Source of the DNA: Gordonibacter urolithinfaciens
GTDB taxonomy: Bacteria; Actinomycetota; Coriobacteriia; Coriobacteriales; Eggerthellaceae
Direction: 5' to 3'
Assembly: GCF_900199375.1 (NCBI RefSeq)
Contig: NZ_LT900217.1
Span: forward strand, 558,001-622,000
DNA: 64,000 nt
Part shown: piece after piece, positions 32,428 through 47,724 of the stretch
How positions within the stretch are numbered: position 1 is the first letter of the stretch
Layout of the letters: each line of letters starts with the position of its first letter
Notes under the pieces: generated by a model
Seen by the model: the letters and a program-made list of their open reading frames with translations, nothing else
Databases searched by the model: none
What the model was told of the DNA's origin: nothing
Made by a program: the position numbers and the translations under genes

Positions 32428-33660
32428 CTACCCGCGGCGTTTGCCTGCCGCCGCAGCCACGACCGCCGCCGCGGCTGCGGCGGAGCCGGCGGCTGCGATT
32501 GCCCCGAGCCCCCAACCGGCCGCATCGCTCGTTGCGGCGAGCTTCTTGGGGGCCGGGTAGTACCTCGATGCAGGCACCGACGTCGACGCCGGTGCAGCAG
32601 AGGGCGCGCCCGACCCGCCCGTCGGCGGAGCCGAGGCCGGCTCGGGCTGCGGCGCGGGATCGGGCAGCTTCTCGAACCGGGCCGTTACGGTCAGGTTCTG
32701 CACGATATGCGAGAAATCGACATCCCATCCTGTGAAGCGATAGCCTTCGGGGGCTTCCACATCGGGCGCGGTTGCTGCGCTGAACAGCGGCACCTCCTCG
32801 GTGGCGAGCACTTGGCCCTCCCAGCCTGCGAACGTCACCGTGCGCGTGGCGGTGATGAGGAATGAGCCGTCGTCCTGGAGCGTGCCCACGCGTTCGCCGT
32901 CCTCCACGATGGCGGTGTCGCCGCCGTTCACGAACAGGTGGTCGAGCGTCATGAGCTCGGAAAGGCGCGTCGCCCCGAACGGCGCCACGATGGTGTTCGA
33001 CGTGTAATCGCCGCCCACCGAGTAGCCCAGCACCCGCACGGGGGCGCCGAACACGATATGCGAGAGATCGAGGGTGCCGCCGAAATGCGTGATGTTGCTG
33101 AGGCTGGCTCCCGGCTCGAGCACGAGCGTGGCTCCGGCCCAGATGGACATGCTATAAGCGCCGCCCGTGAGCGTGACAGTGGCCGAGGGCAGCAGGTCAA
33201 GGGGAAGCGTGGCCTCGGCGATCGTGACGGAGCCGGGGCCGCTCACGTTGGCAGGCCGCGTCAGGTCGAACGCCTGCACCTCGTTGCCGGCACCGTCCAA
33301 GCGAAGCGCCGTGACCCCGGCGAACGAGAGCGTGCCGATGCGCACGCCCGAGCCCACGTTGATCGCGCCCACGCCCGCGGCGATCCGCACGTCGCCCATC
33401 GCCGCCGAGGCCGGGTCCGCCATGCCGGCGATGGTCACGCCGTCGCCCGTGACGGATAGCACCGCGCCATCCCACGCGTAGGCATCGGCGGGCCCCTCCA
33501 CATCGAACGGCCCTGCCGGAGCGGCGTCGGCCTGGCCAGGGGCAAGCGCAAAGAGCACCGCGGCAAGGGCGCAGACGACGATCGCAAGCGTGAGCGCACG
33601 ACGGCGCGGCTGCGGCTCCGGCGCGCGGAATCGGGGCGGGACGAGGGTTTCGGCGGGCAT
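32428..33660 (-). CDS. Secreted, C-terminally anchored surface protein
   Basis: A 410-residue protein. A signal segment, LTLAIVVCALAAVLFALA, ends at ADA (about residue 46). The mature part is beta-rich, built of short Gly/Ala/Thr-rich strands. Near residue 330 is an InlB-type B-repeat end (EGYRFTGWDVDFSHIVQNLT). A Pro/Ser/Ala linker leads to a C-terminal hydrophobic helix and KRRG, a sortase-like sorting tail without a recognisable LPXTG. It probably decorates the cell wall. There is no evident operon partner. Confidence 0.7.
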   Translation of the reverse strand: MPAETLVPPRFRAPEPQPRRRALTLAIVVCALAAVLFALAPGQADAAPAGPFDVEGPADAYAWDGAVLSVTGDGVTIAGMADPASAAMGDVRIAAGVGAINVGSGVRIGTLSFAGVTALRLDGAGNEVQAFDLTRPANVSGPGSVTIAEATLPLDLLPSATVTLTGGAYSMSIWAGATLVLEPGASLSNITHFGGTLDLSHIVFGAPVRVLGYSVGGDYTSNTIVAPFGATRLSELMTLDHLFVNGGDTAIVEDGERVGTLQDDGSFLITATRTVTFAGWEGQVLATEEVPLFSAATAPDVEAPEGYRFTGWDVDFSHIVQNLTVTARFEKLPDPAPQPEPASAPPTGGSGAPSAAPASTSVPASRYYPAPKKLAATSDAAGWGLGAIAAAGSAAAAAAVVAAAAGKRRG

Positions 33661-33800
33661 GGGGTCACTCCTATCGCATCGGTTGATGCGACGAGCCTAT
33701 CACCTGCGCCCGACATCGCCCCACCCATCCGCCAGCCTGCACTCAACGGTAGCAAGGCCGTTGACCTGGCGAACGCACAACGAGAACCCGATGCTCCCGC

Positions 33801-34013
33801 TTACTTTCGGAAGGGAGCCTCGGGGGATTCAGGCGTGGCGGAAGCGCCAAGGGCACCAGGCGTCCCGGGAGCTTTGGGGGCTCCGGGAGCACCAGGGGCT
33901 CCCGGGGCACCAGGGGCTCCCGGGGCACCAGGGGCACTAGGAGCCCCGGGAGCGCTTGAGCTGCCTGCGCCTTCGGGATTGTTGACTACCGGGGTCGACG
34001 GTCTGAAGCACAT
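33801..34013 (-). CDS. Collagen-like mini-protein with MCFRPS N-terminus
   Basis: A 70-residue product: MCFRPSTPVVNNPEGAG and then about 13 GAP/GXP triplets, ending ATPESPEAPFRK. The ATG at 34013 has AAAAGGAGGTTTTCCC, one of the best ribosome sites in the window, so the gene is real despite low complexity. From memory, short proteins starting MCFRP(P/S) sit near oxidoreductase genes in gut anaerobes and often carry zinc-ribbon cysteines; here the only cysteine is Cys2 and a collagen-like tail takes the place of a ribbon. It lies downstream of the molybdoenzyme and ferredoxin genes. Function unknown. Confidence 0.7.
   Translation of the reverse strand: MCFRPSTPVVNNPEGAGSSSAPGAPSAPGAPGAPGAPGAPGAPGAPKAPGTPGALGASATPESPEAPFRK
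33882..33950 (-). repeat. 18-bp tandem repeat coding for GXP triplets
   Basis: Near-identical units of GGGGCTCCCGGGGCACCA follow one another, each coding two collagen-like triplets. The unit is in frame, so copy number can change without a frameshift. Confidence 0.65.
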
Positions 34014-34110
34014 GGGAAAACCTCCTTTTGAAATGAAAGCAGCCTGTCCTCGCCGCTTTCCCTGTTCGCTATTGTAGGGGCGGATGCCATGCAGAACATG
34101 ACCCTGCCTG

Positions 34111-34141
34111 CGTGGTTTACCCCACCCTATCGCACGGTGAG
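34111..34141 (-). promoter_or_regulatory. Candidate regulatory site A, upstream of the MCFRPS gene
   Basis: GTGGTTTACCCCACCCTATC followed by CGGTGAG. The first part closely matches site B at 37851 upstream of the molybdoenzyme gene (GTGGTTTCCCCAGCCTATT). It lies about 100 bases before the ATG at 34013. Confidence 0.4.
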
Positions 34142-34153
34142 AAGAGGGGCGGT

Positions 34154-34453
34154 TCAAGGGGTGGCACGATGCTGACCGGGAGCGATAACGGGCACCATAC
34201 GAGGAGAAAGCGCTCCTTTCACGAGCTCTTCCTCCATATGCACGGCGTTGGCGGGGCAGATGCGCAGGCACGCCCCGCACCCGCCGCACACCAAGGCATC
34301 GTCCACATAGGCACGGCGCGCGTCCGCATCGTAGCCGATCACCTTGCCCAAAGGGCAGCAGCGCATGCAGAGCTTGCAGCCCACGCACAGGCCAGCATCT
34401 ATCGTGATGCGCTTTCGCGAAGTGAAATGGGTTCTGAGAGGTCCGTAAGCCAT
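34154..34453 (-). CDS. Small 2x[4Fe-4S] ferredoxin-type protein
   Basis: A 99-residue electron carrier with two cluster motifs, CVGCKLCMRCCP and CGGCGACLRICP, separated by a short linker, as in bacterial-type dicluster ferredoxins. It has no signal or membrane segment. It lies 46 bases downstream of the PQ-loop-like gene in the molybdoenzyme unit, so it is a good candidate electron donor for that enzyme. The ATG at 34453 follows GGATGGATGA. Confidence 0.85.
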   Translation of the reverse strand: MAYGPLRTHFTSRKRITIDAGLCVGCKLCMRCCPLGKVIGYDADARRAYVDDALVCGGCGACLRICPANAVHMEEELVKGALSPRMVPVIAPGQHRATP

Positions 34454-34499
34454 TCATCCATCCAGTCCTACGGCAAGCCGCACGCCGCAAACGCGGTGT

Positions 34500-34811
34500 C
34501 TAGCCGTCTTCCAACGCGCACGCCGCCTGCGCCTCGCGTTCCTTGTCGCGCTTCGAGTTGATGAAGTACAGCACGATATCGGTTCCCACGAAGCAAAGGT
34601 TGATCACGTAGAACACCACCACGTAGCTCAAGGACGTAGCCATGAACTTCGAGGTGATTCCGCACAGGTAGGCGCAAAACGATATGCTCAAGAACAGTAG
34701 GCTCTTGCCTTTCGCCGTTTTCGAGCGGATCGATTTCACGATGGAGGAAGGCCAGGCGATACCGAAGCCCACCAGAAACAGCATCTCGAAGAATTGCGAC
34801 CAAAACGTCAT
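34500..34811 (-). CDS. Small three-helix membrane protein, PQ-loop/SemiSWEET-like
   Basis: A 103-residue protein with three predicted membrane helices (FFEMLFLVGFGIAWPSSIV; LLFLSISFCAYLCGITS; YVVVFYVINLCFVGTDIVLYF). The first loop, SIVKSIRSKTAKGKSL, resembles the PQ-loop signature of SemiSWEET-type transporters, with Trp-Pro in place of Pro-Gln. The ATG at 34811 has GGAGGAG seven bases upstream. It may move a substrate or product of the adjacent molybdoenzyme, or anchor it; both are inference. Confidence 0.65.
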   Translation of the reverse strand: MTFWSQFFEMLFLVGFGIAWPSSIVKSIRSKTAKGKSLLFLSISFCAYLCGITSKFMATSLSYVVVFYVINLCFVGTDIVLYFINSKRDKEREAQAACALEDG

Positions 34812-34965
34812 GGGACGTCTCCTCCCCCGCCGCGGTGCGTCCGCGCTCACCGTGCCGCCACGCGCTGTCTTTCAACGCTCCGTCGAGGGGGCGCCAGCAC
34901 CAGCTGCCGTCCCCTCGGTTCCACTCGTTACGGGAGCGAACCACCTCTCCCGTCCCGACAGCCTG

Positions 34966-37713
34966 CTACTTGCCGAGCGTGTCGTACGTGCACTTGGGAT
35001 GCTGGCCCGGATCGTCGTTCTCCCAGTCGATCCGCTTGATCTCACGGCAGCCCAGCTTGTCGTACTGGTCGTTGAAATAGGTGTCGCCCTCGATGAACTG
35101 GTCGCCCGTCACCGTCACGTCCGTGCGGTCGGCAGGATCGATGCACGGGTAGATGCGGCAGAGCAGGCCGCGGTTCGTCCACGTTCCCGTGGCCTCGTCG
35201 GAACCCCTGACCGTGCCATCCACCAAACAGCCGACGTTGGAGATGAACGCACCCTGGCTCCACGGCTCCTCCGCCGGAAGCTCCGGATACCACCACGAGG
35301 GCATGGCCTGCACAGTGCCCTTGATGATGGCCTGGTCGACATGGGCAACCTGCTTGATGCGGCCGCGCTCGTTCTCGATCCACACCCAGTCGCCGTCGCG
35401 CACACCGCAGGCACGGGCATCCTCGCGGTGCATGTACACGCTGGGATACGGGAAGATGGAGCGCGTACCCTGGCCGGGAACGCGGTTCTCAGAGTGGTAC
35501 AGGACCGAGACGCGGCCGCCGGTGGTCAGGCGCAGCGGGTACTTCTTGGCAAGCTCTGGATTCGAAAGCGGCGTCTCGGGCAGCTCGCGGTAGTACGGGA
35601 GCGCGCTGTAGTCCAGATCTTCCATGAGCGTGGGGTAGATCTCGGCCTTGCGGGTGGGCGTCGCGAAGCCCTTGGTCTGGCCGTTCGGCAGCGTCTCGGC
35701 GTACTTGAAGGAGCGGGTGGGACCGGGGAACCAGGTACCCTGCTCGCACAGCGTGGTGTAATCCACGTCGACCCCACGCGAGATACGGTGCTTGATGACA
35801 TCTTCGTAGGTCTCCCACGGCCAAGCCTCGGCCTGACCCATGCGGATGCCCAGGCCACGGAAGAAGTCGTAGTCCATAACGCGGTCACCCACCGGCTTGG
35901 AGCCACGGTCGCCGCACACCACGAAGTCGTTGGAATCCTCGGCGGTGGTGAAGCACGGGCGCTCGAGGGAGTCGCAGCCGGGGATGATGTAGTCGGCCAT
36001 AGCTGCGGCAGGGGTCTTCCAGTACTCGACGGAGACGATAAGCTCCAGGTTGTTCTTCATGATCTTGTACAGGCGCTGCGGATCGGGCGCCCAGGCGAAC
36101 GGGTTGGACGACCACATGATCATGGCCTTGATGGGATAGGGATCCCCGAACTCCATGGCATCGTATACCAGCACCGGCGAGCACAACAGCTGATGCAGCA
36201 TCGGGCGCGGAACGCCGAACATCTTCATGTAGGCGTCGTAAATCGGCTCGTAGCCCTTCCAGCTCATAGCGCGGAACTGGTCGTAGCCGATGTACTTCTT
36301 GCGAATCTCGGGCGTGACGAGCTCGGACATCTCCATCTCGGCATCGCGGTACGGGAACGGCTTGGAGCCGTCGGCCTGCACGACACCGGGCTCGCCCACG
36401 TACTCGCCGCCCGGCTTGTCGATGTAGTTGCAGATGATACGCAGAATGGTCTTGGTGATGCACAGGCGCGAGGCGTTCGGGCCGGCCTGGTCGCCGCCTC
36501 CGAGGCCCCAGGTGATGAACGCGTTGCCGTTGGTGGCGTACACGCGGGCGGAATCGGCGATCTTGTTCTCGGGGATGCCGGTGATGGGAGATGCCCACTG
36601 CGGGCTGTAGGGCTCGGCCATCTCCTTGATGGCATCCCAAGCGGTGTAGCACTCGACCGTGGAGCCGTCGAGCAGCGAGATGGTATGGGTACCGCTCAGA
36701 GCCGGGTCGACGTCGCCGTCGGCGAACCACTCGTTCTTGTCGGAGTTCCACAGCAAGATGTTGCTGGCAAGGTTGTCCCACACCACGAAGTCGGAGTGCG
36801 CGGCGCCTTCTTTAACCTGGTCGGCGCGAATGGTGTGCTTGGTCTTCTTGTCCAGCAGGAACGGGCCGTTCGACCACCACTTGATGAACTCCTCGTCGTA
36901 CCAGCCGTTCTCGATGACCTCGTGCAGCCAAGCCAGGGCAAGCGCATGGTCGGTGCCGGGGTAGATGGGCATCCAGATGTCGGCAAGCAGGGCCTGCGTG
37001 GTGCAGTACGGGTCGATGACGATCATCTTCGGCTTCTTGCCGGGGCGGTCCATCGCAGCCAGGTACTGGCGCCACATGGGGCTTTGCGGGCCATATTTCT
37101 CGGAAGCCGAAAGGCCCCACACCACGAACGTATCGGACTGGTCGATGCCCACCGGCGAGATGGCCTCGATAGGCCAGCCCACCATGGCCATGTTCAGCGT
37201 GTAGTTCCAGCACCAGCAGATGGTGCCGGGATCGATGACGTTGCCCGGGTTGCCGAGGTTGTTGAAGAAGCGGGTGCGCGCCCACAGGTGGTCGGAGCGG
37301 TACGTGCCCTCGGAAGAGACCAACGTCTCGGGGCCGTACTTGTCGATAAGCGCCTGCAGCTTGTCGGCGATCTCGTCCATCGCCTGCTCGTAGGGGATCT
37401 CCTCCCATTTGTCCTCGCCGCGCTCGCCGGCACGCTTCAGAGCATGGTTGATGCGCTTGGGATGGTAGTGCATCTGGATGGCCTTCTGGCCGCGCTCGCC
37501 CATGCGGTCGCACAGCACCGTACCCTCTTTCCAATTGCCGCGAATCTCCACCACGCGGTCGGTCTTGGTGTCGGCGCCGATGACGATGCCGCAGTTCATG
37601 TGGCAGTAGAAGCAGCGGGAATACGTCCATTGGACACCGGTCTCGTCGATGTACTTGTTCGGCATGTCGGCAGGAAGCTTGACCTCGACCCGTTCGGTCT
37701 TCTTAAGTTCCAT
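34966..37713 (-). CDS. Molybdopterin (bis-MGD) oxidoreductase, DMSO reductase family; candidate dehydroxylase
   Basis: A 915-residue catalytic subunit. Cys34, Cys37, Cys41 and Cys68 form the N-terminal [4Fe-4S] site. The segment PGTICWCWNYTLN lies where the family places the metal ligand, so a Cys ligand is possible. PLRLTTGGRVSVLYHSENR and IENERGRIKQ mark the C-terminal cofactor domain. The ATG at 37713 has AGAGGGG; there is no Tat signal, so the enzyme is probably cytoplasmic. No TorD chaperone or membrane subunit adjoins it. A LuxR regulator upstream and a small ferredoxin downstream recall the catechol dehydroxylase loci of Eggerthella and Gordonibacter. The substrate is unknown. Confidence 0.85.
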   Translation of the reverse strand: MELKKTERVEVKLPADMPNKYIDETGVQWTYSRCFYCHMNCGIVIGADTKTDRVVEIRGNWKEGTVLCDRMGERGQKAIQMHYHPKRINHALKRAGERGEDKWEEIPYEQAMDEIADKLQALIDKYGPETLVSSEGTYRSDHLWARTRFFNNLGNPGNVIDPGTICWCWNYTLNMAMVGWPIEAISPVGIDQSDTFVVWGLSASEKYGPQSPMWRQYLAAMDRPGKKPKMIVIDPYCTTQALLADIWMPIYPGTDHALALAWLHEVIENGWYDEEFIKWWSNGPFLLDKKTKHTIRADQVKEGAAHSDFVVWDNLASNILLWNSDKNEWFADGDVDPALSGTHTISLLDGSTVECYTAWDAIKEMAEPYSPQWASPITGIPENKIADSARVYATNGNAFITWGLGGGDQAGPNASRLCITKTILRIICNYIDKPGGEYVGEPGVVQADGSKPFPYRDAEMEMSELVTPEIRKKYIGYDQFRAMSWKGYEPIYDAYMKMFGVPRPMLHQLLCSPVLVYDAMEFGDPYPIKAMIMWSSNPFAWAPDPQRLYKIMKNNLELIVSVEYWKTPAAAMADYIIPGCDSLERPCFTTAEDSNDFVVCGDRGSKPVGDRVMDYDFFRGLGIRMGQAEAWPWETYEDVIKHRISRGVDVDYTTLCEQGTWFPGPTRSFKYAETLPNGQTKGFATPTRKAEIYPTLMEDLDYSALPYYRELPETPLSNPELAKKYPLRLTTGGRVSVLYHSENRVPGQGTRSIFPYPSVYMHREDARACGVRDGDWVWIENERGRIKQVAHVDQAIIKGTVQAMPSWWYPELPAEEPWSQGAFISNVGCLVDGTVRGSDEATGTWTNRGLLCRIYPCIDPADRTDVTVTGDQFIEGDTYFNDQYDKLGCREIKRIDWENDDPGQHPKCTYDTLGK

Positions 37714-37768
37714 TGAAGCCCCTCTCGAATAGTCTGTGCGGGGCATTCTCCCAGCCCCGCGAAAGTCA

Positions 37769-37799
37769 CATGCGAGCAAGCCCGGGTTCCGCTCGCATG
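37769..37799 (-). promoter_or_regulatory. Inverted repeat upstream of the molybdoenzyme gene
   Basis: CATGCGAGC and GCTCGCATG, 13 bases apart, centred 71 bases before the ATG. The spacing suits a dimeric regulator, for instance the LuxR protein encoded next door, near the promoter. Confidence 0.45.
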
Positions 37800-37850
37800 C
37801 CGTTGAGACCATTCTATTGAGGGAGGGAGCGGAGGGCATGACGCGCCCAA

Positions 37851-37905
37851 GGTGGTTTCCCCAGCCTATTCCGGGGAGGGAGCCTAGGATGAGAGGCAGG
37901 GTGAG
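37851..37905 (-). promoter_or_regulatory. Candidate regulatory site B, upstream of the molybdoenzyme gene
   Basis: GGTGGTTTCCCCAGCCTATT (37851-37870) resembles site A, and AGGGTGAG (37898-37905) matches the motif repeated before the chaperone and MoxR genes. It lies between the LuxR gene's end and the molybdoenzyme start. Confidence 0.4.
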
Positions 37906-37960
37906 GCAGAGACGTGCCCCCGCCCCCGCCGATGCCGGCTGGGGCGGGGGCGGGGCGCGA

Positions 37961-40708
37961 TTATTCGTCCTCGCCGTCGTGGACGATAGAGAAGGCGTCG
38001 ATGCGGTTGGTGACGCCCAGCTTGCTGTAGATACCGCCCACGTGGCTTTTCACCGTGTTCAGCGACACGGTGAGCATCTCCGCAATCTCGCGCCTGGAAA
38101 GGCCCGCGTCAAGGAGCTCCAGCACTTCGCACTCGCGCTCGGTCAAGCCGAAGCGGGCCATAGGATTCGCCGTACGCTCCAGCACCGTCTCCTCGGCTTC
38201 GTTGGCTCCGAAGCGATGCAGCACCGCCTTCGCAAGCTGACGGGCCTGTCCGCCGGATTTGCGCACGTCCACGATCTCGTGGAGCAGCGCGCGGATTTTC
38301 CCGCCGGCACGCAAGAAGGGGCCTACCACCTGCTGGCCGGCTTGCAGCCTGAGCGCGCGGTTGAGGTACATGAGCGCATCGGAGCGCCTTCCGCATGCCG
38401 CCAAACGCTCGGTCGCCCGAAGGGAAAGCTCAAGCTCGCGCAAGCCGAGCCCCGCTCCGCACGCGCGCTCGACGAGCGGCAGGATGTCGTCGGGGTCGCC
38501 GACGCTTCCCGAAGCATCGTCCACGGCAGCGCGCACGGCCAAGCCGGCCAGCTCGAAGTCGATATCACCCCGGCCGATGCCCGCCTCGAGGCGCCTCGCC
38601 GCCGCATCCGCCTCGGGGATATACCCCATAGCCAACGCAACCTGGGCTTGCCTGACATGCACGAGCAGGTTGATGCTGCGCGGCACGCTTGCCGTGCCCA
38701 TCTGCAGTGCCGTCTTCGTTATCAGGTTGAAAGCCTGGGCGTGCTTCCCCGCCGCCGCGTAGTAATGGGCGCGCTCGGCCTCGGCCTCGTAGAGCATATC
38801 CACGTTGCGAGACGTGGACACGATACGGTGGGCACGCTCGACGCACTCGCGCGCCTCTTCCAACCGGTCCATCTCCACGCAGAGGTATCCCTTGGAGGCA
38901 AGCAGCGATCCGTACGGGATAACGGTATCGGGACATTCGGCAAGCGCCTTCTCGCACAGCTCGAGGGCTTCCTTCAACTCTCCTTGCGCAATGCGCAAGG
39001 AGATGATGCCCATGCGGCACATGGCAAGGTAGAAGTCCGATTTACCCAGCTCGGCCATGACCTCCGCCTGCAGATAGTTCTTCAGTGCCTCGTCGAAGCG
39101 GCCTCTGCGTGCATACGATTCCGCCAGCGAGTGCAGCAGCAGGCAACGCTGCGGAAGGGAGAGCTCTTCCTCGTGGGAGCGCAGGATAGCCTCGCTTTTG
39201 GCCATGGCTTCATCGTGAAGGCAGTCCATCTCAAGGCATTTTGCCCGGAACAGGTCAACCACGATCGAGGCATCGGGTCCGTCCTGACCAGGCTCGTGGG
39301 CTGCGGCGCGCTCGAACACCTCGATCCAGCGCAAGCCCTCGTCCGTTCGGGCGCAGATAACGTACCCCCATGCCGCATGGAGCGCCAACTGGGGAGACTC
39401 GGTGAACCGAGCTGCCGTGATGCGGCTGATCCAATCGAAGTAGGACATGCCGGTGCGCTGCGATTCATATCCCGAGGCCTGGGCCAGGTTCTCGATGAAG
39501 TTGGAATCTGACGCCATCAGCAGGTACTTCGCCGCCTCGGAGGTCATCTGGTGCGCCTCGTACCAGTCGCTTGCCGTCCGGCAGAGCTCAAGCAGATGGT
39601 TGGCGTCCATTTGCCCCTGCTTCATGCGCAGCCACCGGCGAAACAGCGGATGGAACTCGAACCAGCCCGCCTCGTTGGCGCACGGGCTGAGAAAGCACCC
39701 CCGTATGCGCAAATCGCGCAGGACGAACTTGGAGTCGGTGCGCCCGGTCAGCGCATTGCACAAGTCGGCGCACACCGTATCGGTCAGCGCTACCTCTATC
39801 ACGAACTGCGCCAGATCTTCGGGCAGCGCATCCAACACGCTGCTGCGGAAGAAACGGTTGAGCATCTGGCCGAGCGCGCGCTCGTCCACCGTTGCAGAAC
39901 AGTCGATCGACCCGCGGACAAGCGCATCGGCATACGTGCGAACACCGAGCGACCAGCCGTTCGTTATACCCCACAGATCAGCCGCAAGCGCCTTTAAATC
40001 CCGCGCATCCAGCTTGATGGGTGTTTCGGAAACGTAGGAGACCCGAGGCGATGTCTGAGCGTCCATGGCCTGTCTCAAGATGGCCTCCACCTCGTCTTGG
40101 CTGAAATTGAGCTTATCCGAGGGGAACATGCGCACCTCGTCACGAAAAGCCAAATCGATGTGCTCCCACAACAGGTAGTTTCCCGAGGCTACCACGTGCA
40201 CCGTTTCGGGGAAATAGCGCGCCGCCGAATTGAGGAATTCCGCTATGGCGTCGGGGGCCGCCCTATGTAGGTCGTCGACGAGCAAAACCACATCCACCCC
40301 CACATCGGAGGCGCGTTCAAGCAGGAAGTTGCTGAGCGCAACCCAAAAATAAGTAGGGTTTTCCTGGTAAAGCCGAACCAGCTCGACCATATCGAGCTCG
40401 GACCATACCGTATGCAGGGCGGCAAGCACATGGCGCGCCAACCTATCGCAGTCGTCGGCATCATCCACCGACAACCAGGCTGTTCGCCAATGCTCGGCAT
40501 CATCACCAAGGCGCCGGTACGCTTCCGCCAGAAAGCCGCTTCTTGCCGACCCCACCGGAGCCTCAACCGTCACGATCTTGCCGCTCAAGCACTCGATCAG
40601 GCTTTGCAGCGCACCGTCCCGGTCGATGGAGAGAGACGAGCGGCGAGGTGGAGTGATCTTCGCCAAAGCAACGTCATGCGAAACCTTCATAGGTATGCCT
40701 GCCGCCAT
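37961..40708 (-). CDS. Large LuxR-family (MalT/LAL-type) transcriptional regulator
   Basis: A 915-residue regulator. An N-terminal STAND-type ATPase domain has a degraded P-loop (APVGSARSGFL; the Lys is replaced by Arg) and a Walker B VVLLVDDLHRA. A long array of TPR-like helices follows (about residues 400-830). The C-terminal HTH reads LTERECEVLELLDAGLSRRE and ends NTVKSHVGGIYSKLG. In Eggerthellaceae such regulators often adjoin inducible molybdoenzymes. The ATG at 40708 follows GGGGGAAGGACC. It lies 48 bases after the chaperone gene, so the two are probably cotranscribed. Confidence 0.85.
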   Translation of the reverse strand: MAAGIPMKVSHDVALAKITPPRRSSLSIDRDGALQSLIECLSGKIVTVEAPVGSARSGFLAEAYRRLGDDAEHWRTAWLSVDDADDCDRLARHVLAALHTVWSELDMVELVRLYQENPTYFWVALSNFLLERASDVGVDVVLLVDDLHRAAPDAIAEFLNSAARYFPETVHVVASGNYLLWEHIDLAFRDEVRMFPSDKLNFSQDEVEAILRQAMDAQTSPRVSYVSETPIKLDARDLKALAADLWGITNGWSLGVRTYADALVRGSIDCSATVDERALGQMLNRFFRSSVLDALPEDLAQFVIEVALTDTVCADLCNALTGRTDSKFVLRDLRIRGCFLSPCANEAGWFEFHPLFRRWLRMKQGQMDANHLLELCRTASDWYEAHQMTSEAAKYLLMASDSNFIENLAQASGYESQRTGMSYFDWISRITAARFTESPQLALHAAWGYVICARTDEGLRWIEVFERAAAHEPGQDGPDASIVVDLFRAKCLEMDCLHDEAMAKSEAILRSHEEELSLPQRCLLLHSLAESYARRGRFDEALKNYLQAEVMAELGKSDFYLAMCRMGIISLRIAQGELKEALELCEKALAECPDTVIPYGSLLASKGYLCVEMDRLEEARECVERAHRIVSTSRNVDMLYEAEAERAHYYAAAGKHAQAFNLITKTALQMGTASVPRSINLLVHVRQAQVALAMGYIPEADAAARRLEAGIGRGDIDFELAGLAVRAAVDDASGSVGDPDDILPLVERACGAGLGLRELELSLRATERLAACGRRSDALMYLNRALRLQAGQQVVGPFLRAGGKIRALLHEIVDVRKSGGQARQLAKAVLHRFGANEAEETVLERTANPMARFGLTERECEVLELLDAGLSRREIAEMLTVSLNTVKSHVGGIYSKLGVTNRIDAFSIVHDGEDE

Positions 40709-40756
40709 GGTCCTTCCCCCTTGCCAACCCGTGCGCTGCCGGTATCCACCCTGCCA

Positions 40757-42115
40757 TTATGCTACTTTTCCTACCGCCGGAGCAGACCCTGCCGGCATTT
40801 GCAGAGAAGCATCTTCAATCAACGTGGAGCACGCCACCAGATCCTCGCTTGCCTTGAGGCGCAAGGCACCCTCGCGCGCCAGGTAAAGATAGCCGCTGCT
40901 TTCAACCTCTTCGCGCATCTGGGCGCCCCGGCCCTGCGCCGAAGAGGCGAAGAACGCATCGACGTCGGCGTCGGTTATCTCAAGGCCGCGATACCTGGCC
41001 CACGCGTCGAGCGCAGCCCCCTGGCGCAGCTGGGCGCGTGCCTGCATAAGCACCATCATGCGGTACTCCTCCTCGCTCGAGCCTTGCGCGCTCAGAAGCT
41101 CGTCGACCGTCGTATGCTGGGCGCGGGCCTGCTCGTACAGCGAATCCATCATCTGGTCGGCCACGGCATCGTAGGCCGCATCGGGAAGGTAGCCCTCGAT
41201 GCGCTTGGCAAGCTCGCCCGCCGCGAGGAAGTTGCGGTAATGGCGCATCTGCTCCGCCTTTTGCCGCTCAAGCTCCTTGCGGGACAGCTCCCGCAGTTCA
41301 ACCACGCTGCTGGCGCCGGGAATGCTCTGGGAGATGAAGTCGTCGTTCAGCACGCAGGCCACCTCGCGCATGATAGCCTCCACTTTCACCTCCGCGCACA
41401 CAGAAGGACCCGAAAGCGTCCCATCGAGCTCCTCGCGCGTCAGCAGCAGGAAATCGACGTGCACCATGCTGCCCACGGGCGCATGGGCAAGCGCCTCGTC
41501 GAAGCCATCCGGCATCTGCCCCGAGCCCGCTCGGTACAAGCGGTTGGCGAAGCACAGCTGCTCGAAGCGCTCTCCGTCCTTCAGGCAGTCCATCGATATC
41601 TGCACCACATCGCCCTCGGCAACCTGGGTGCGGCTCTCATCGGGTTCGACGCCGGTGTAGGTCTGCGCCACTTCCTCCATCCGCGCATCGATTTCGGCCT
41701 CGCTCACCGAAACGGGCGGAACCGCCAGCTCAAGGGGTTCGTAGGAGGAAAGCGTCACGGCGCCGAGGCGCGTCCACGTTGCATCGAAGACTAAATCCCC
41801 TTCGGCTTCCAATCTGCGATCGGCATCGAAGATTGGCGCGCCCACCACCGAGTAGTCTTCGCTTTCCGATGACAGGGCAAACGGTGCGACGAAGTTCTTC
41901 ATGGTTTGCGTCACCAGCGACGCCGCCTCGGATACGCCAAGCGCGCTCTCGAGCAGCTGGCGTGCCGTCTCGTTGCCGCCCAGATCGATGTTGTTTCGCT
42001 GGGCCACCACCAAGCAGGCGCCGCGCTCGAGCGACTCCAGCTCGCTTGCAGCCACGCGCACCGTCAGCGTTACCGACTCGTCCTCAACACGCCTGCCCTC
42101 AACCCGGATCTCCAT
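40757..42115 (-). CDS. Trigger-factor-like chaperone / FKBP-type isomerase
   Basis: A 452-residue protein with the trigger factor layout: an N-terminal domain, a central FKBP-type domain (VAEGDVVQISMDCLKDGERF; then MPDGFDEALAHAPVGSMVHV) and a helical C-terminal chaperone domain from about residue 250. The N-terminal domain lacks the GFRxGxxP ribosome-docking signature, so it is a specialised paralogue rather than Tig. The ATG at 42115 follows AAGGAGGATGAAAGC. It shares its upstream region with the divergent MoxR/VWA pair, suggesting a dedicated folding role for the local molybdoenzyme (inference). Confidence 0.75.
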   Translation of the reverse strand: MEIRVEGRRVEDESVTLTVRVAASELESLERGACLVVAQRNNIDLGGNETARQLLESALGVSEAASLVTQTMKNFVAPFALSSESEDYSVVGAPIFDADRRLEAEGDLVFDATWTRLGAVTLSSYEPLELAVPPVSVSEAEIDARMEEVAQTYTGVEPDESRTQVAEGDVVQISMDCLKDGERFEQLCFANRLYRAGSGQMPDGFDEALAHAPVGSMVHVDFLLLTREELDGTLSGPSVCAEVKVEAIMREVACVLNDDFISQSIPGASSVVELRELSRKELERQKAEQMRHYRNFLAAGELAKRIEGYLPDAAYDAVADQMMDSLYEQARAQHTTVDELLSAQGSSEEEYRMMVLMQARAQLRQGAALDAWARYRGLEITDADVDAFFASSAQGRGAQMREEVESSGYLYLAREGALRLKASEDLVACSTLIEDASLQMPAGSAPAVGKVA

Positions 42116-42192
42116 GCTTTCATCCTCCTTGTGCGCCATCATGCCAACACCGCAAACCATCCCCGCAGTGCGCTTTCGACGATAGTGAACCC

Positions 42193-42242
42193 CTCTCACC
42201 CCTCCGTACAGCTACTACCCGGGTGGTTTGACAGGGTGAGAG
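42193..42242. promoter_or_regulatory. Candidate regulatory site C, inverted CTCTCACCC/GGGTGAGAG
   Basis: CTCTCACCC (42193-42201) and GGGTGAGAG (42234-42242) are perfect inverted copies, with GTGGTTT (42223-42229) between them as in sites A and B. It lies about 80-125 bases before the chaperone gene. Confidence 0.45.
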
Positions 42243-42334
42243 ACAGGGCGAGATCGAATGCCCGCAACCATCCTTCTTTTCTTCAGAGTCCAAGAAGGAA
42301 ACGTATCGCCTGATCACGTTCATTTCGCCCCGTG

Positions 42335-42398
42335 TTTCACCCTATCATTTCACCCTTTCGAGCGCATGAAGTCGCCCCGGGTGGGCGCTAGGGTGAAA
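42335..42398. promoter_or_regulatory. Candidate regulatory site D, three TTTCACCCT copies
   Basis: TTTCACCCT at 42335-42343 and 42348-42356, and its complement AGGGTGAAA at 42390-42398, lie just before the MoxR gene. Together with site C, five copies of the GGGTGA core fall within 210 bases of the divergent region. Confidence 0.45.
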
Positions 42399-42433
42399 GC
42401 ACGAGCCATACCGACCAGGAAACGAGGGGGATC

Positions 42434-43858
42434 ATGCGGTTTGAAAACCTCGCCAAACACTATATTCCCGCCCTGCAGTCATACGGGATTACCATCCCCC
42501 AAGACGGAGAAGGGCGCTTCATGCTTTTCGAGGAAGACGGGACCATCGTGCCCGAAGTGCGCAAGCAGATAATTCCGTTGGGCGAAGAGGGCTTGATTCC
42601 CCAAAAGCTCATGCAGGACGCGGTTTTGCAGTACCTCGACTACCAGCAGCAAGAAGACGACATCCTGGCAACCTACGCGCTCGCGGAGCTTCACGAACGC
42701 CAGCTCGATGCGCATCTGGCTTTGTGGCAGACGATGGTCGATGCCGCCAAGGCCGGCCGCGCCTTCACCGATGTCGAGCTGGCCTGCTACGAGAAGGATA
42801 TCTCCCGTGCGCGCAAAGACCTGAACGCCGCGCGCAGCAACGCGCGGGCCGACATAGCCGAGCGCGCCCAAGCGCTGCACGACCGCGAGACCATACGGCG
42901 CTACGGCCTGCTGTTCGACCGCGAGATGATACAGGACATCGATACGCTGGTCGGCAACGCCCTCTCGGCGCGCCCCACCCTCCTCGTCGGCGACAAAGGC
43001 ATAGCGAAAACCCAAATGGCGAAGTTCGTCATGCGCCTCTACGGCACCGAGCCGCTCATCGTCTCGGTCAAGGGCGACATGATGAGCGACGAGCTGGTAG
43101 GGAAGATGGTTCACGATGCCCCCCGCAATACGTTCGTGTTCGAGGAAGGAGCCCTTCCCCGCGCCATGCGCGCCGGCGTTCCACTGCTGCTCGACGAAAT
43201 CAACTTCGGCGATCAGGCGATCATCGCGCGTTTGCAGGACATCCTTCTCAAGGGCCCCGGCGAATCGGTGTTTTTGCAGGAAGAGGGCATCGACCTGGTA
43301 GTACAGCCCGGATTCACCGTGTTCGCCACCGCCAACGAAGCATCGGCGCGATATCGGCACCGCGAGGTCCTAGACCCCGCCATCCGCGACCGCTTTGAGG
43401 TCATCGAGCGAACCTATCCCGACCTTGATCGGGATCCCCTGCGCCGTCCCAGCCCCTCCCTGATGCGGCTCGCCCTCTGCGAGGCGGTCGATGCCGACGG
43501 GGTTTTCAGCCGCCATCTCGACCGCGACCTGCTGAACGCCTTGGTGCATCTTGCCACCTTGACCGAGCACCTCTATGCCGTGCCGGCGAAAGACGCGGCC
43601 ATCTCGCTTGAGAAAGACCAAGCTGGCAGCATCGTGCGCGAAGACACCGCCCCTTTGCTGACCGACTGCATCACGCCGCGCGCCCTCAATCGCGCCGTCC
43701 AGGACAGCGCAGGAGGAAACCTGCCCGGACGCCACCTTGACCTCTACCTCATCGACAAGCTGCTGCGCACCCTTGACCAAGCAGGATCGAACCATAACGC
43801 CAGCCTAGCGCGGCAAGCCGCCCTGCTGGTGGGCATCGACCTAAGCCCGGTTGGCTGA
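42434..43858 (+). CDS. MoxR-type AAA+ ATPase
   Basis: A 474-residue protein. Residues 1-165 form a helical N-terminal region. The AAA domain has Walker A LLVGDKGIAKTQ, a MoxR-like insert (SDELVGKMVHD), Walker B PLLLDEINFG, and sensor 1 in VFATANEAS. MoxR ATPases pair with VWA proteins to remodel enzymes, e.g. CoxD/CoxE for Mo-CO dehydrogenase, NorQ/NorD and RavA/ViaA. The next gene is such a VWA protein, four bases on. The ATG follows GAGGGGGATC. It is probably an activase or metal-centre maturation factor for the molybdoenzyme; the target is inferred. Confidence 0.85.
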   Translation: MRFENLAKHYIPALQSYGITIPQDGEGRFMLFEEDGTIVPEVRKQIIPLGEEGLIPQKLMQDAVLQYLDYQQQEDDILATYALAELHERQLDAHLALWQTMVDAAKAGRAFTDVELACYEKDISRARKDLNAARSNARADIAERAQALHDRETIRRYGLLFDREMIQDIDTLVGNALSARPTLLVGDKGIAKTQMAKFVMRLYGTEPLIVSVKGDMMSDELVGKMVHDAPRNTFVFEEGALPRAMRAGVPLLLDEINFGDQAIIARLQDILLKGPGESVFLQEEGIDLVVQPGFTVFATANEASARYRHREVLDPAIRDRFEVIERTYPDLDRDPLRRPSPSLMRLALCEAVDADGVFSRHLDRDLLNALVHLATLTEHLYAVPAKDAAISLEKDQAGSIVREDTAPLLTDCITPRALNRAVQDSAGGNLPGRHLDLYLIDKLLRTLDQAGSNHNASLARQAALLVGIDLSPVG

Positions 43859-43862
43859 ACCC

Positions 43863-45641
43863 ATGGCCACCCGTGTTGAACAGGTGAAGCGCACGGTCGA
43901 GCACGTTGCGGCAATCAGCGGGCTCCGCACCGCCACGGTTTGCGTGAGCGCCGAGGGCAAAACCGGATGCCGGCTTACCCGCAGCGGCATCGACCTGCTG
44001 GTAAACCACGAGCTCAACGAGGACATTGCCGCGCGTAAGCGTTATGGCGTGCGCGGCACCATCGCCCTTGGCGAAGTCGACACCATGGTTGCCTGCTTCG
44101 TGGCAACCCGTGCGCAGGATTTCCTGCTCGACGACTGGCGCCAGCGCTTCGACTACCAAAACAACCTGTCGTCCCCCGCGCAACGCTACCTGCAGACGTG
44201 CATCGACGATATGGCAGCGTATGCGCGCATGATCAGCCGCATTCCCTTTGCCAAGCTGCACTTCGAAGCCTACCTCTCGCGCGCGGCGGCCCATGTGATG
44301 GCGAGCGAGCCTCTACACATCCAGCTTATGCGCACCCTGCGCCTCTACCTTTTCGAAGACCAGCCCAACGTGGTCGTCTCGCCGCTCATCGTCGAATGCC
44401 TGGGCACCGCCGCCGCCATGGACCCGCGTGTTGCCGCACTCGAGCGCCTCCTGTTCGACGAGAGCCTGTCCTACAGCGCCCGCCACAACCAGGCAGCGCG
44501 CCTGATAACGCCGCTGTTCACACGCATGATAAAGTTGGATGAGGAGGCATTGAGCTTTTACGACCTGGTGCACCTCTACGACAACGAGCAATCCTACGGC
44601 GCTTCCAAAGATGCCGCCAACGACGAGAACGCGCTGCGCCAAGAGGCTAACGAAACCGAGTTCATCCAGGCGTCGCTCGCCACGGTGAACGAAGGTAATA
44701 TCGACCAGCTGATCGCCGACAACAACGAAGCACCCGTCGAGGCGGGCAAGACGCCCAGCCTCAGCCTGCCCAGCATGTCCGCCGAAGCGAAAGCCATGGC
44801 GTTCCTCGACGATGGCCGGGCGTCCTACGAGCGCACGGCAGAGCGCTATCACGACACCATCGAGCGCATTGCCGAGGTTCTCGTGCGCATAGCCACTCCG
44901 CAGGAGCAGTTGGGCGTTTTCCGCTACCGCGCCCGACTTGCCCGCAGCGGCACCCGCATGCATCCCAGCACGCTCGTGCAAGCCCATCTCCAACTCGAGT
45001 CCGGTTGCGAGAATGCGATCTGGCAGAAGCGGCAGCGGTGCAGCCGCCCACAGAACAGGCAGTTTCACGGCATGGATATATACGTGCTGCTTGACGTGAG
45101 CATCTCAATGACAGGAAAAAATGCCAGCAGCGCCGGTGCACTGGCGGTTTGCCTTGTCGAAGGCATCGATCGGGCACTACAGCTTGCCGCGCGCGATCAG
45201 CAGCAGGGTGCGGTGGATATACGCACCCAGCTGCTTGCCTTCGGCGAAGGCTGGGCAGAGCTGACGCCCCTGGAGTTCACCCATGATCATGAGCGCAAGC
45301 GCTTTGCCTTCAACCTGGTCAACAACCCCACGAGCGAGCAAACCCTGATCACCGCAGCACTCAAGCAGGTGCAGGCCCGCGCCGCTGCCGAACCGACACG
45401 CAACATCGTATGCCTGGTGGTGGGCGACGGCCTATTTGCCGACGGCCTGCAGGCCAGAAAATGCGCGATGGGGTTGCCGCCCAACGTTTACCTCGCGCAC
45501 ATCAACATCGGCGCGTTCAATGGACTGCCCCTGACGGGCAACTTCGAGACGATCCAGGATCCTGCCCTGCTCCCCGAGAAGCTGCACCTCGTCTTGGCCC
45601 GGCAGCTTGAGCGCCCGGACGACTCCCTCGACGCCCGATAG
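43863..45641 (+). CDS. VWA-domain partner of the MoxR ATPase
   Basis: A 592-residue protein. The C-terminal von Willebrand A domain contains the MIDAS motif DVSISMTGK (DxSxS) at about residues 407-415, with VVGDGLFADG further on. The first 400 residues are helical and have no domain I recognise. I use the ATG at 43863; an in-frame TTG at 43851 overlaps the MoxR stop. The stop lies one base from the stop of convergent asnB. The pair resembles CoxE/NorD/CbbO adaptors that present a target to the ATPase. Confidence 0.8.
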   Translation: MATRVEQVKRTVEHVAAISGLRTATVCVSAEGKTGCRLTRSGIDLLVNHELNEDIAARKRYGVRGTIALGEVDTMVACFVATRAQDFLLDDWRQRFDYQNNLSSPAQRYLQTCIDDMAAYARMISRIPFAKLHFEAYLSRAAAHVMASEPLHIQLMRTLRLYLFEDQPNVVVSPLIVECLGTAAAMDPRVAALERLLFDESLSYSARHNQAARLITPLFTRMIKLDEEALSFYDLVHLYDNEQSYGASKDAANDENALRQEANETEFIQASLATVNEGNIDQLIADNNEAPVEAGKTPSLSLPSMSAEAKAMAFLDDGRASYERTAERYHDTIERIAEVLVRIATPQEQLGVFRYRARLARSGTRMHPSTLVQAHLQLESGCENAIWQKRQRCSRPQNRQFHGMDIYVLLDVSISMTGKNASSAGALAVCLVEGIDRALQLAARDQQQGAVDIRTQLLAFGEGWAELTPLEFTHDHERKRFAFNLVNNPTSEQTLITAALKQVQARAAAEPTRNIVCLVVGDGLFADGLQARKCAMGLPPNVYLAHINIGAFNGLPLTGNFETIQDPALLPEKLHLVLARQLERPDDSLDAR

Positions 45642-45642
45642 G

Positions 45643-47604
45643 CTACGCCACCTGGGTCTTCGGCGCCAGCTTCTCGCTCGACTTCCCGAAGAACACCTCG
45701 TACCAGCACAGGAAGCAGTAGATGTTCCAGATGCGCATCATCTTGAGCTTGCCGCGTCCCTCCACCGTGGAGAAGTCGGCCGACTTGTGGTCGTCGAGCA
45801 TCTGCACGAGGTAGTCCACGTTGAAGAACTCGTGCGCGGCCTCGCTCGTGAACGCCTCCTTGATGCGGTCGTAGTACAGGTCGGTCTGCAGCCACACCGT
45901 GAGCGGCGTGATGAACGGCTGCTTCGGCATGTTCGCCACCTTCTTCTGGAAGCCCAGCTTGCTCGCGGCCACGCGCAGCGCGTACTTCGCGTGGTCGTCG
46001 TCCACGCGGCAGGCCGTGGGCAGCTGCAGCGCCACGTCGAGCACCTTCTTGTCCAAGAACGGCACGCGCAGCTCGAGCGACTGCGACATGGACATCTTGT
46101 CGGCCTTCAGGCAGATGTCGAAGGGCATGTAGCTCACCATGTCAACGTACTGCGTCTGCGTGATGATGTCGATGTCCTGCTTCGCCGCCTCGTCGAAGTG
46201 CGGCTTGCACCATTCCCACGGCTTGCAGGGGCCGTCGTAATCGCGCAGCACGTTGGGGATCTCGTCCCACATGTAGTTCATGCTCGCGCGCTGGTAGCTT
46301 TTCTCGGGGCCGCCCGACCCGCGCATGGCGAAGCGGCGCCCGTGGAAGGAGGGGAGCTTCTCGGCCACCGCGCCTGCGGCGGCGCGCAGGGGGCGCGGCA
46401 CGCGGAAGTACTTGCCGAACTCGAACTGGTCGTGGTAGATCCAGTACCCGCCGAACAGCTCGTCGGCGCCCTCGCCCGACTGCACCACCTTCACCTGCTC
46501 GCGCGCCAGGCGGCTCACGAAGAACAGCGGGATGGCGCTCGGCGCGCCCAGGGGCTCGTCCATGTGGTACTGCTCGGTGGGCACGATGTCGAGGAACTCC
46601 TGCGCGTCCACCTTCACCTGCCAGTTCGGCAGGTTGGCCCACTTCGCGAACTCTTCGGCGTCCTCCAGCTCGTTCAGTTTGATCTCGAAGTCGGACTGCG
46701 CGGCGATCTCGGCCAGCTTGTCCTCGCAGCCGATGTCGTAGCCCACCGAGAACGTCTTGATGTCCGGCGCGTGCTGCCCCATGCAGTACGCGGCCAGCGA
46801 GCTGTCGATGCCGCCCGACAGGAAGCTGCCTATCTCGACGTCGGCGATCTCGTGCGCCGCCACCGACTCGTCGAACGCGCCCACGATGACGTCGGCCCAC
46901 TCGTCGAGCGACTTCGAGTCGTCGATCTTGTAGGTGATCTTGTAGAAGCACTCGGTGCGCAGCTCGCCGTCCTCGAACACCATGAAGTGGCCGGGGAGCA
47001 GCTTGTGCACGCCCTTGAACATGGTCTGCGAGTCGTTCATGTACTCGAAGCACAGGTACTGCGGCAGCTGCTCGCGGTTGAGCTCCTTCTTGAACGCCGG
47101 ATGCGCGAGGAACGCCTTGATCTCGCTGCCGTAGATGAGGCGCGCGCCCACGTGCTGGTAGTAGAACGGCTTGATGCCGAACAGGTCGCGCGCGCACACG
47201 AGGCGCTTCTTCGGCGCGTCCCAGATGGCGATGGCGAACATGCCGCGCAGCTTCTCGAACACGTCCGTGCCCCACGCCTCGTAGCCGTGGACGATGGTCT
47301 CCGTGTCGCCGTTCGTGACGAACGTGTAGCCCATCGCCTCGAGCTCGGCGCGCAGCTCCTGGAAGTTGTAGATCTCGCCGTTGAACGTGACGGTCACGGT
47401 GCCGTCGGTGTTCTGCATGGGCTGGCGGGAGCCTTCGAGGTCGATGATCGACAGGCGGCGAAAGCCCATCGCGATGTCGTCGTCCACGAAGAAGCCCTCG
47501 TCGTCGGGCCCGCGGTGGGCGATGCGATCGGCCATGTCCTTAACGATGGCCTGGTTGGCCTCTTGGTCGTAGTCGACCGCGGTGAATCCCACGAATCCGC
47601 ACAT
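45643..47604 (-). CDS. asnB: Glutamine-hydrolysing asparagine synthetase
   Basis: A 653-residue enzyme. The start is set at the ATG of MCGFVGF so that Cys2 is the N-terminal nucleophile of the class II glutaminase domain; RRLSIIDLEGSRQP and FNGEIYNF follow. The synthetase domain has the PP-loop SGGIDSSL and GEGADELFGGYW. Its length fits AsnB. It makes asparagine or amidates a related carboxylate; no partner gene adjoins it. Confidence 0.92.
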   Translation of the reverse strand: MCGFVGFTAVDYDQEANQAIVKDMADRIAHRGPDDEGFFVDDDIAMGFRRLSIIDLEGSRQPMQNTDGTVTVTFNGEIYNFQELRAELEAMGYTFVTNGDTETIVHGYEAWGTDVFEKLRGMFAIAIWDAPKKRLVCARDLFGIKPFYYQHVGARLIYGSEIKAFLAHPAFKKELNREQLPQYLCFEYMNDSQTMFKGVHKLLPGHFMVFEDGELRTECFYKITYKIDDSKSLDEWADVIVGAFDESVAAHEIADVEIGSFLSGGIDSSLAAYCMGQHAPDIKTFSVGYDIGCEDKLAEIAAQSDFEIKLNELEDAEEFAKWANLPNWQVKVDAQEFLDIVPTEQYHMDEPLGAPSAIPLFFVSRLAREQVKVVQSGEGADELFGGYWIYHDQFEFGKYFRVPRPLRAAAGAVAEKLPSFHGRRFAMRGSGGPEKSYQRASMNYMWDEIPNVLRDYDGPCKPWEWCKPHFDEAAKQDIDIITQTQYVDMVSYMPFDICLKADKMSMSQSLELRVPFLDKKVLDVALQLPTACRVDDDHAKYALRVAASKLGFQKKVANMPKQPFITPLTVWLQTDLYYDRIKEAFTSEAAHEFFNVDYLVQMLDDHKSADFSTVEGRGKLKMMRIWNIYCFLCWYEVFFGKSSEKLAPKTQVA

Positions 47605-47724
47605 GTGGCTGGTTCTCCTTTGCGTGCGTGCCCTTGCGCGCAACGGCGCGGCACGGTTCGTCCGTATCCTTCGGTATGATACGCCACGCGCGGCGAAACC
47701 CCAAGAACGGCGATGGAAACCCCA

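Follow-up and report, generated by a model that had tools for sequence, protein, structure and literature searches.

What do a MoxR-type AAA+ ATPase and its VWA partner do beside a molybdenum enzyme of the dimethyl sulfoxide (DMSO) reductase family? The question is raised by a block of eight genes in a stretch of 64,000 nucleotides from Gordonibacter urolithinfaciens (contig NZ_LT900217.1, positions 558,001 to 622,000; hereafter the window), taken from a genome of 3.29 Mb in a single contig (G000). An earlier note on this DNA had proposed an inducible molybdoenzyme system with its own chaperone, MoxR-VWA activase and LuxR regulator. All the genes that it named were found where it had placed them, eight genes as described, and the ends that it had set (33,801–45,641) almost equal those of a block that is absent from a relative (33,778–45,643). 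The reading that we favour, with a probability of roughly 60%, is that this block is a self-contained inducible cassette, in which a NorQD-type system would mature a cytoplasmic, acetylene-hydratase-like enzyme.

The enzyme (34,966–37,713, minus strand; 915 residues from an ATG at 37,713) matches the Molybdopterin and Molydop_binding models and falls just under the cut-off of Molybdop_Fe4S4 (21.6 versus 22.7 bits). With both domains, the cluster cysteines and the metal-ligand cysteine present, it belongs to the DMSO reductase family, whose cofactor is bis(molybdopterin guanine dinucleotide) (bis-MGD). A search of its frame for a twin-arginine pattern was negative, in agreement with the earlier description of an oxidoreductase without Tat signal. 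Among solved structures, acetylene hydratase (2e7z; 267 bits) is the closest to it and carries the ligand Cys at the same aligned position; the two proteins differ in that they share 28% identity over 520 residues and that the Gordonibacter enzyme is about 190 residues longer. The position that we take to be that of the catalytic Asp of acetylene hydratase is occupied by His in the enzyme of the block, as in its group and in the group of presumed ellagic-acid (eam) enzymes, with one Ser. When acetylene hydratase and the two presumed eam enzymes are included in a tree, the oxidoreductase falls in a clade of 13 rows (100/100) and the eam enzymes in a separate clade of 10 rows (100/99). Across the first clade the ligand region reads DPG[TSQ][IV]CWC[WY] (CWTW in one row), whereas the two presumed eam enzymes, about 28% identical to the oxidoreductase, have CYxPR. 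These two references belong to a presumed eam cluster of the same genome (L143) and were identified by gene content, not by accession. The region in question (L143: 876–13,552), probably an ellagic-acid cluster, contains the two enzymes, a LuxR gene, a PF04909 decarboxylase candidate and two long membrane-type frames that we took as MFS genes, and its presence suggests that the genome is that of a urolithin producer.

The MoxR gene (42,434–43,858, plus strand) is followed after 4 bases by the VWA gene (43,863–45,641, plus strand). The MoxR protein, which has an N-terminal extension of about 170 residues, matches AAA_5 of Pfam (60 bits, E 2e-16) and, in the PDB, midasin, NorQ and CobS; no other protein of the genome matches AAA_3 at E ≤ 0.001. 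The positions that we take to be its Walker A, Walker B, sensor and arginine residues are invariant in four rows; with these matches and intact motifs it belongs to the MoxR/midasin/CbbQ-NorQ group of AAA+ proteins. For the VWA protein, the ATG at 43,863 is the most likely start, because the frames of L043 and L044 have a stop just before the equivalent ATG. The Pfam VWA models match this protein only below their cut-offs; its metal ion-dependent adhesion site (MIDAS; DxSxS-T-D) is complete, D415, S417, S419, T498 and D526 being invariant in six proteins. A fold search of the PDB with a model of the protein returned, at ranks 1 to 4 (E 1e-7 to 3e-6), the G chains of NorQD complexes, which we take as NorD, followed by midasin MIDAS domains; the alignment with NorD spans about 270–295 columns, and the segment ahead of the MIDAS is in part modelled with a predicted local distance difference test score (pLDDT) below 50. 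Sequence and model together point to a VWA protein of the NorD type. We also considered a cobaltochelatase-type metal chelatase and rejected it, the CobS and CobT matches being weak and no large chelatase subunit being present among the eight genes.

Is this pair tied to the enzyme? Among 396 genomes of the same class, a MoxR profile had matches in six (E ≤ 1e-25), and among 396 drawn from the phylum in two, both Gordonibacter (E ≤ 1e-30); at a loose cut-off, eight of 138 genomes of the family matched the MoxR query, with G029, G031, G036 and G111 doing so weakly, over about 100–160 residues. A scan of GTDB species contigs with two short peptide patterns, which reaches close relatives only, gave six MoxR loci, on contigs titled Gordonibacter, Eggerthellaceae, Eggerthellales, Coriobacteriales or Coriobacteriia. 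Enzyme orthologues of at least 70% identity occur in six of 396 genomes (G000, G066, G068, G130, G371 and G422), in a search that scored two candidates per genome (up to six in the family search) and whose homologue counts are lower bounds. MoxR is present in five of these six genomes, each time in the same cluster as the enzyme (hypergeometric p about 5e-10; locus-level Fisher p 7e-5; both values ignore shared ancestry, and the three Gordonibacter rows are not independent). All five MoxR loci with enough flanking DNA (the window, L043/L080, L044/L079, L045/L081 and L083) contain in the cluster an enzyme orthologue of at least 76% identity, a homologue of the ferredoxin gene of the block and a LAL regulator gene. 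In these counts L079, L080 and L081 were taken as duplicates of L044, L043 and L045, and L082 as a duplicate of L101. Two further MoxR loci lie on short contigs (L082/L101 and L084); in L084 a ferredoxin reading frame stands directly 3′ of the VWA gene on a cut contig. The order of the genes varies: two divergent arms in Gordonibacter, a MoxR-VWA pair facing the enzyme side in L045, and in L083, from another family, a co-directional run LAL-enzyme-ferredoxin-MoxR-VWA. The MoxR-linked enzymes are monophyletic (100/100), and their sister, L096, has no MoxR-VWA genes nearby. Presence with five of six close orthologues, in three lineages and three gene orders, together with the joint absence and the shared promoter boxes described below, upholds the proposal that the MoxR-VWA pair belongs with the oxidoreductase. 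At two of these loci we noted additional genes: 3′ of the VWA gene of L083 (13,437–19,356), a methyltransferase, a DUF5714 protein, a CobW-type GTPase and a methyltransferase/radical-SAM-like frame, and in L045 (9,936–10,715) another LuxR-type gene, a small one whose product seems to have membrane helices, adjoining the ferredoxin gene.

The block also behaves as one piece. In the closest relative, G067, comparison by blastn of the corresponding locus (L109) showed that the equivalents of window positions 33,554–33,777 and 45,644–47,619 are joined with 13 bases between them, all eight genes and both divergent arms being absent. The flanking genes are 97.4% (MurJ-like) and 96.6% (AsnB) identical to those of the window, and a run of about 100 N in L109 lies inside the flanking surface-protein gene, away from the junction. 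Because the more distant G066 and G068 hold the block between the same neighbours (MurJ identity 92% and 80%), loss in G067 appears to be the simpler reading. G065 showed none of the eight genes at the equivalent place, where about 1.9 kb of other DNA lies between the AsnB gene and the surface-protein gene. The genus mates Gordonibacter sp. 28C (L079) and Gordonibacter sp. Marseille-P2775 (L080) have the block.

The regulator gene (37,961–40,708, minus strand) encodes a protein that matches the MalT model (202 bits, for an equivalog cut-off of 537), GerE and TPR_MalT. Its N-terminal STAND ATPase, TPR region and C-terminal LuxR helix-turn-helix make it a LAL of the MalT type, which sharpens the LuxR/LAL assignment of the earlier note. 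Its Walker A motif is degenerate (GSARS) in the three Gordonibacter; GKT is kept in L045, in L083 and in most other relatives examined. Both arms of the block carry copies of a short box, AGGGTGARA, in their promoter regions. All four exact copies of the window lie inside the 318-base divergent promoter region between the trigger-factor-like and MoxR genes (42,116–42,433), and 10 of the 16 copies with at most one mismatch fall in three promoter gaps (706 bases). The divergent region contains two box pairs (42,233–42,253, plus; 42,335–42,356, minus) and a single box (42,390–42,398), and a further pair, AGGATGAGA-n3-AGGGTGAGG, stands at the enzyme promoter (37,886–37,906, plus) and is conserved in L043 and L044. 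Because the finding in the window was post hoc, tandem pairs of the 9-bp box (period 12–13 bp, at most one mismatch per box) were sought elsewhere. The 904,396 bases of fetched loci and window contain 13, all of them in LAL-enzyme clusters. The three Gordonibacter clusters account for 10, two of which have a box in common; these pairs stand either at the enzyme promoter or between the trigger-factor-like and MoxR genes. Of the other three, one lies between the enzyme and LAL genes of L045, one in L083 in the gap between the LAL gene and the divergent side, and one in L049, a locus without MoxR, upstream of the enzyme at the LAL gene's 3′ end. The exact pair pattern taken from the window has only two copies in the 3.29 Mb genome, both in the trigger-factor/MoxR gap. 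The tandem boxes resemble what we take to be the MalT box, and we regard them as putative LAL sites; if they are so read, co-induction of both arms is predicted. The presence of tandem boxes at each of the divergent units thus lends plausibility to inducible control by the LAL, as suggested in the earlier note. A promoter and terminator scan of 42,000–42,500 gave no match. We rejected another candidate element, ATAGGSTGGGGWAAACCAC, shared by the promoters of the mini-protein and the enzyme: both promoters had served, post hoc, to define it, and when up to one mismatch was allowed a scan of the genome recovered only one of the two sites.

The trigger-factor-like protein (40,757–42,115, minus strand) matches Trigger_N and Trigger_C, as trigger factor (tig) does; it differs from the latter in its score (138 bits, below the NCBIfam tig cut-off of 180) and in the absence of GFRxGxxP, which we take to be the ribosome-docking motif. 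This motif is missing from 31 of the 32 trigger-factor homologues found in the loci, some of which are fragments without N-terminal domain; the exception that keeps it, L078, is the presumed housekeeping trigger factor of G000. Some enzyme-linked relatives keep only the C-terminal part: the protein of L083 has no N-terminal domain match, and about 200 residues remain in those of L052 and L055. A trigger-factor-like gene stands beside or near the enzyme in nine of the 27 loci of the clade (window, L043, L044, L083, L052, L055, L059, L060 and L098). At least four changes are required for the enzyme-linked copies on a quick tree, whose long branches leave the exact number unsure; repeated recruitment of a trigger-factor-like protein to the enzyme clade is therefore suggested. 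This repeated linkage argues for the protein as a partner of the enzyme, as the earlier note had it. Its further idea, that the chaperone acts in place of a TorD protein, was not borne out: in L050 a TorD/NarJ-type gene (PF02613) adjoins the enzyme instead of a trigger-factor-like gene, and a trigger-factor-like gene is likewise not seen in most homologue loci. Another trigger-factor-like paralogue, widespread and likewise devoid of the ribosome motif, was observed (L077, at about 733 kb in G000, L065, L070, L072 and L075); in L077 and L065 it stands beside a large reading frame, read as FtsX-like. The paralogue was rejected as a member of an enzyme operon. In L070, L072 and L077, LuxR-type genes and a molybdoenzyme of 25% identity lie about 4 kb away, and such nearness is weak evidence because each Gordonibacter genome gives about 100 first-look enzyme candidates.

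Several observations weigh against a dedicated maturation cassette. The model of the VWA protein is of moderate confidence (pLDDT 60), and its NorD matches have a TM-score, by target length, of only 0.50–0.57, with root-mean-square deviations of 8.6–10.7. The 16 boxes of the window equal the mean of shuffled sequences (15.7), their location alone being unusual, and the motif was first noticed in the window's own trigger-factor/MoxR gap. A trigger-factor-like gene was not found in the L045 locus. As for the linkage, G422 (L096) encodes a 72% identical enzyme with LAL and ferredoxin, and MoxR-VWA was found neither nearby nor elsewhere in this genome, which is 78% complete. Conversely, the MoxR gene of G412 lies on a 3.9 kb contig, and elsewhere in that genome only a 52% identical enzyme was found among the candidates scored. 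MoxR-VWA is nearby in none of the 21 homologues at 46–58% identity, within fetched stretches of which several are short contigs; homologue loci that end at contig ends are L053, L054, L058 and L098–L102. After kinship is allowed for, three lineages in support thus face two exceptions: in G422 no MoxR was found to go with the enzyme, and in G412 no close enzyme to go with MoxR. The earlier note had held that enzymes routinely lacking the chaperone and MoxR-VWA genes would speak against its proposal. For the pair, this is what we see in 21 of 21 homologues at 46–58% identity and in one of six at 70% or more, but not in the other five, and MoxR-VWA is therefore a feature of one enzyme subclade, not of the whole family.

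How might such a cassette work? To the extent that sequence can tell, the genes that make up the block, the linkage of the pair to one subclade, the absence of the block from a relative, the shared boxes and the NorD-type VWA protein form its groundwork; what the pair does is argued from known systems. In NorQ-NorD, a MoxR-type AAA+ ATPase also works with a protein that has an N-terminal domain, a low-confidence linker and a C-terminal VWA domain with MIDAS, and NorQD entries are the best fold matches of our VWA model. The long N-terminal extension of the MoxR protein sets the block apart from that system, and so does the linked enzyme, a cytoplasmic bis-MGD enzyme rather than a membrane haem/iron reductase. 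For NorQD, it has been proposed that ATP hydrolysis twists the VWA domain and linker and so opens the target for metal insertion (PMC13036017), and the MIDAS of NorD is reported to be needed for target activity and not for NorQ binding (PMC9976466). In CoxD-CoxE, a MoxR-like ATPase and a VWA protein likewise serve a molybdenum enzyme, at the Mo-Cu site of CO dehydrogenase (PMC4240915). That enzyme is a member of the xanthine oxidase family, the one in the block of the DMSO reductase family, and genes resembling coxF or coxG are lacking among the eight.

By analogy to NorQD and CoxD/E, the pair should act on the enzyme, which probably needs an ATP-driven motor to become active. In the scheme that we propose, the MalT-type LAL would sense a ligand, bind the tandem boxes with their 12–13 bp period and turn on both divergent units. 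The trigger-factor-like protein would hold the new apo-enzyme, and MoxR, presumably a hexamer like other AAA+ proteins, would remodel it together with the VWA protein through ATP hydrolysis, so that the bis-MGD metal site, or an attached cluster, could be installed or repaired. The mature cytoplasmic enzyme would then receive electrons from the small ferredoxin and reduce a small molecule, most likely in a dehydroxylation- or hydratase-like reaction. The earlier claim that chaperone and MoxR-VWA mature the enzyme is thus strengthened as regards their linkage to it, and maturation itself is suggested by analogy. More tentatively, and with somewhat more doubt than belief, we suggest a NorQD-type motor dedicated to opening or loading the bis-MGD site of a DMSO-reductase-family enzyme from an uncharacterised, acetylene-hydratase-like clade, with a ribosome-independent relative of trigger factor instead of TorD. 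Our literature search found no described MoxR-VWA pair tied to an enzyme of this family, no such maturation route and no publication joining Eggerthellaceae, DMSO reductase and MoxR; on MoxR and the maturation of the DMSO reductase family, one review names MoxR once, for CoxD.

The same pair could serve repair instead, ejecting an inhibitor or reactivating damaged enzyme as CbbQO does for rubisco, with first assembly independent of it. MoxR-VWA pairs are reported to do both repair and maturation work (CbbQO, PMC8718961), and enzyme homologues without the pair nearby are what an optional repair system would leave; we nevertheless hold this to be unlikely. The target could also be another member of the cluster, such as the ferredoxin, the membrane protein, the LAL or an enzyme-ferredoxin assembly, rather than the metal site. 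RavA-ViaA is reported to act on respiratory complexes, ferredoxin and LAL genes accompany the pair in five of five loci with enough flank, and in L084 the ferredoxin frame directly follows the VWA gene. However, homologues of ferredoxin and LAL also accompany many enzymes without MoxR, and MoxR therefore tracks the enzyme subclade and not the ferredoxin or the LAL, which makes such a target quite improbable.

Two further explanations would sever the pair from the enzyme. The locus resembles those of the known Gordonibacter dehydroxylases, cytoplasmic enzymes described with a 4Fe-4S protein, MFS transporters and LuxR regulators (PMC12771579; PMC7028382), and might be an ordinary catechol dehydroxylase locus with unrelated neighbours. 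The resemblance, which the earlier note had also drawn, is real: a cytoplasmic bis-MGD enzyme, a His after the cluster cysteines, the metal-ligand Cys, an adjacent small 4Fe-4S gene and a LuxR-type regulator. Membership fails, being excluded by the separate clades (100/100 and 100/99) and by CWCW instead of the CYxPR of the presumed Eadh enzymes, a comparison made with the two presumed eam enzymes by sequence and with Dodh and Cldh by published descriptions only. The block moreover has no MFS gene, whereas it has MoxR-VWA and trigger-factor-like partners, and its regulator is MalT-type rather than one of the 12-TM LuxRs reported to control the catechol dehydroxylases of E. lenta (PMC9734109). 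With its neighbours absent as one block from G067, an ordinary locus is very improbable. Ternary MoxR-vWA conflict systems have been described in multicellular prokaryotes (PMC7159879), and one could imagine here a defence module, by chance a neighbour of the molybdoenzyme, with the LAL as an inactive STAND-type third component, given its degenerate Walker A in the three Gordonibacter. Yet neither MoxR nor VWA gave a PADLOC match at E ≤ 0.001, it is the enzyme, not variable effectors, that stays with the pair across lineages, and the LAL has a DNA-binding domain and an intact Walker A in L045 and L083; we consider this explanation extremely improbable. A maturation cassette for the enzyme remains the reading that we prefer.

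Three small genes complete the minus-strand arm. The ferredoxin (34,154–34,453, minus strand) is the 2×[4Fe-4S] protein of the earlier note (Fer4_10, E 2e-10) and a probable electron donor. Next to it, a small membrane protein (34,500–34,811, minus strand; alternative start GTG at 34,850) has homologues of about 50–60% identity in the enzyme loci L045 and L052, and 90 of 138 genomes of the family have some match to it. Three helices are indeed modelled, as had been predicted, with poor confidence (pLDDT 54); the PQ-loop-like character ascribed to it is unproven, no Pfam match being found at E ≤ 0.1. The last gene (33,801–34,013, minus strand) has its own ribosome-binding site and encodes a mini-protein of 70 residues (MCFRP...PGAP). 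Members of this MCFRP family, usually with a zinc ribbon, which the version in the block lacks, and a PGAP-repeat tail, recur in some enzyme-LAL operons and also near trigger-factor-like genes (L047: 11,084–11,317; L048: 10,791–11,024; L050: 13,007–13,342; L062, L072, L073, L075 and L077). In L047 and L048, relatives with the added zinc ribbon lie between the enzyme and LAL genes.

The locus defines a conserved, uncharacterised clade of molybdoenzymes, and its putative operator suggests that the inducer could be found with reporters; G. urolithinfaciens and Gordonibacter sp. 28C are reported to be transformable already (PMC9734109). It may thus offer a natural case for testing, on a soluble enzyme, what a MoxR-VWA motor does to a metal enzyme.

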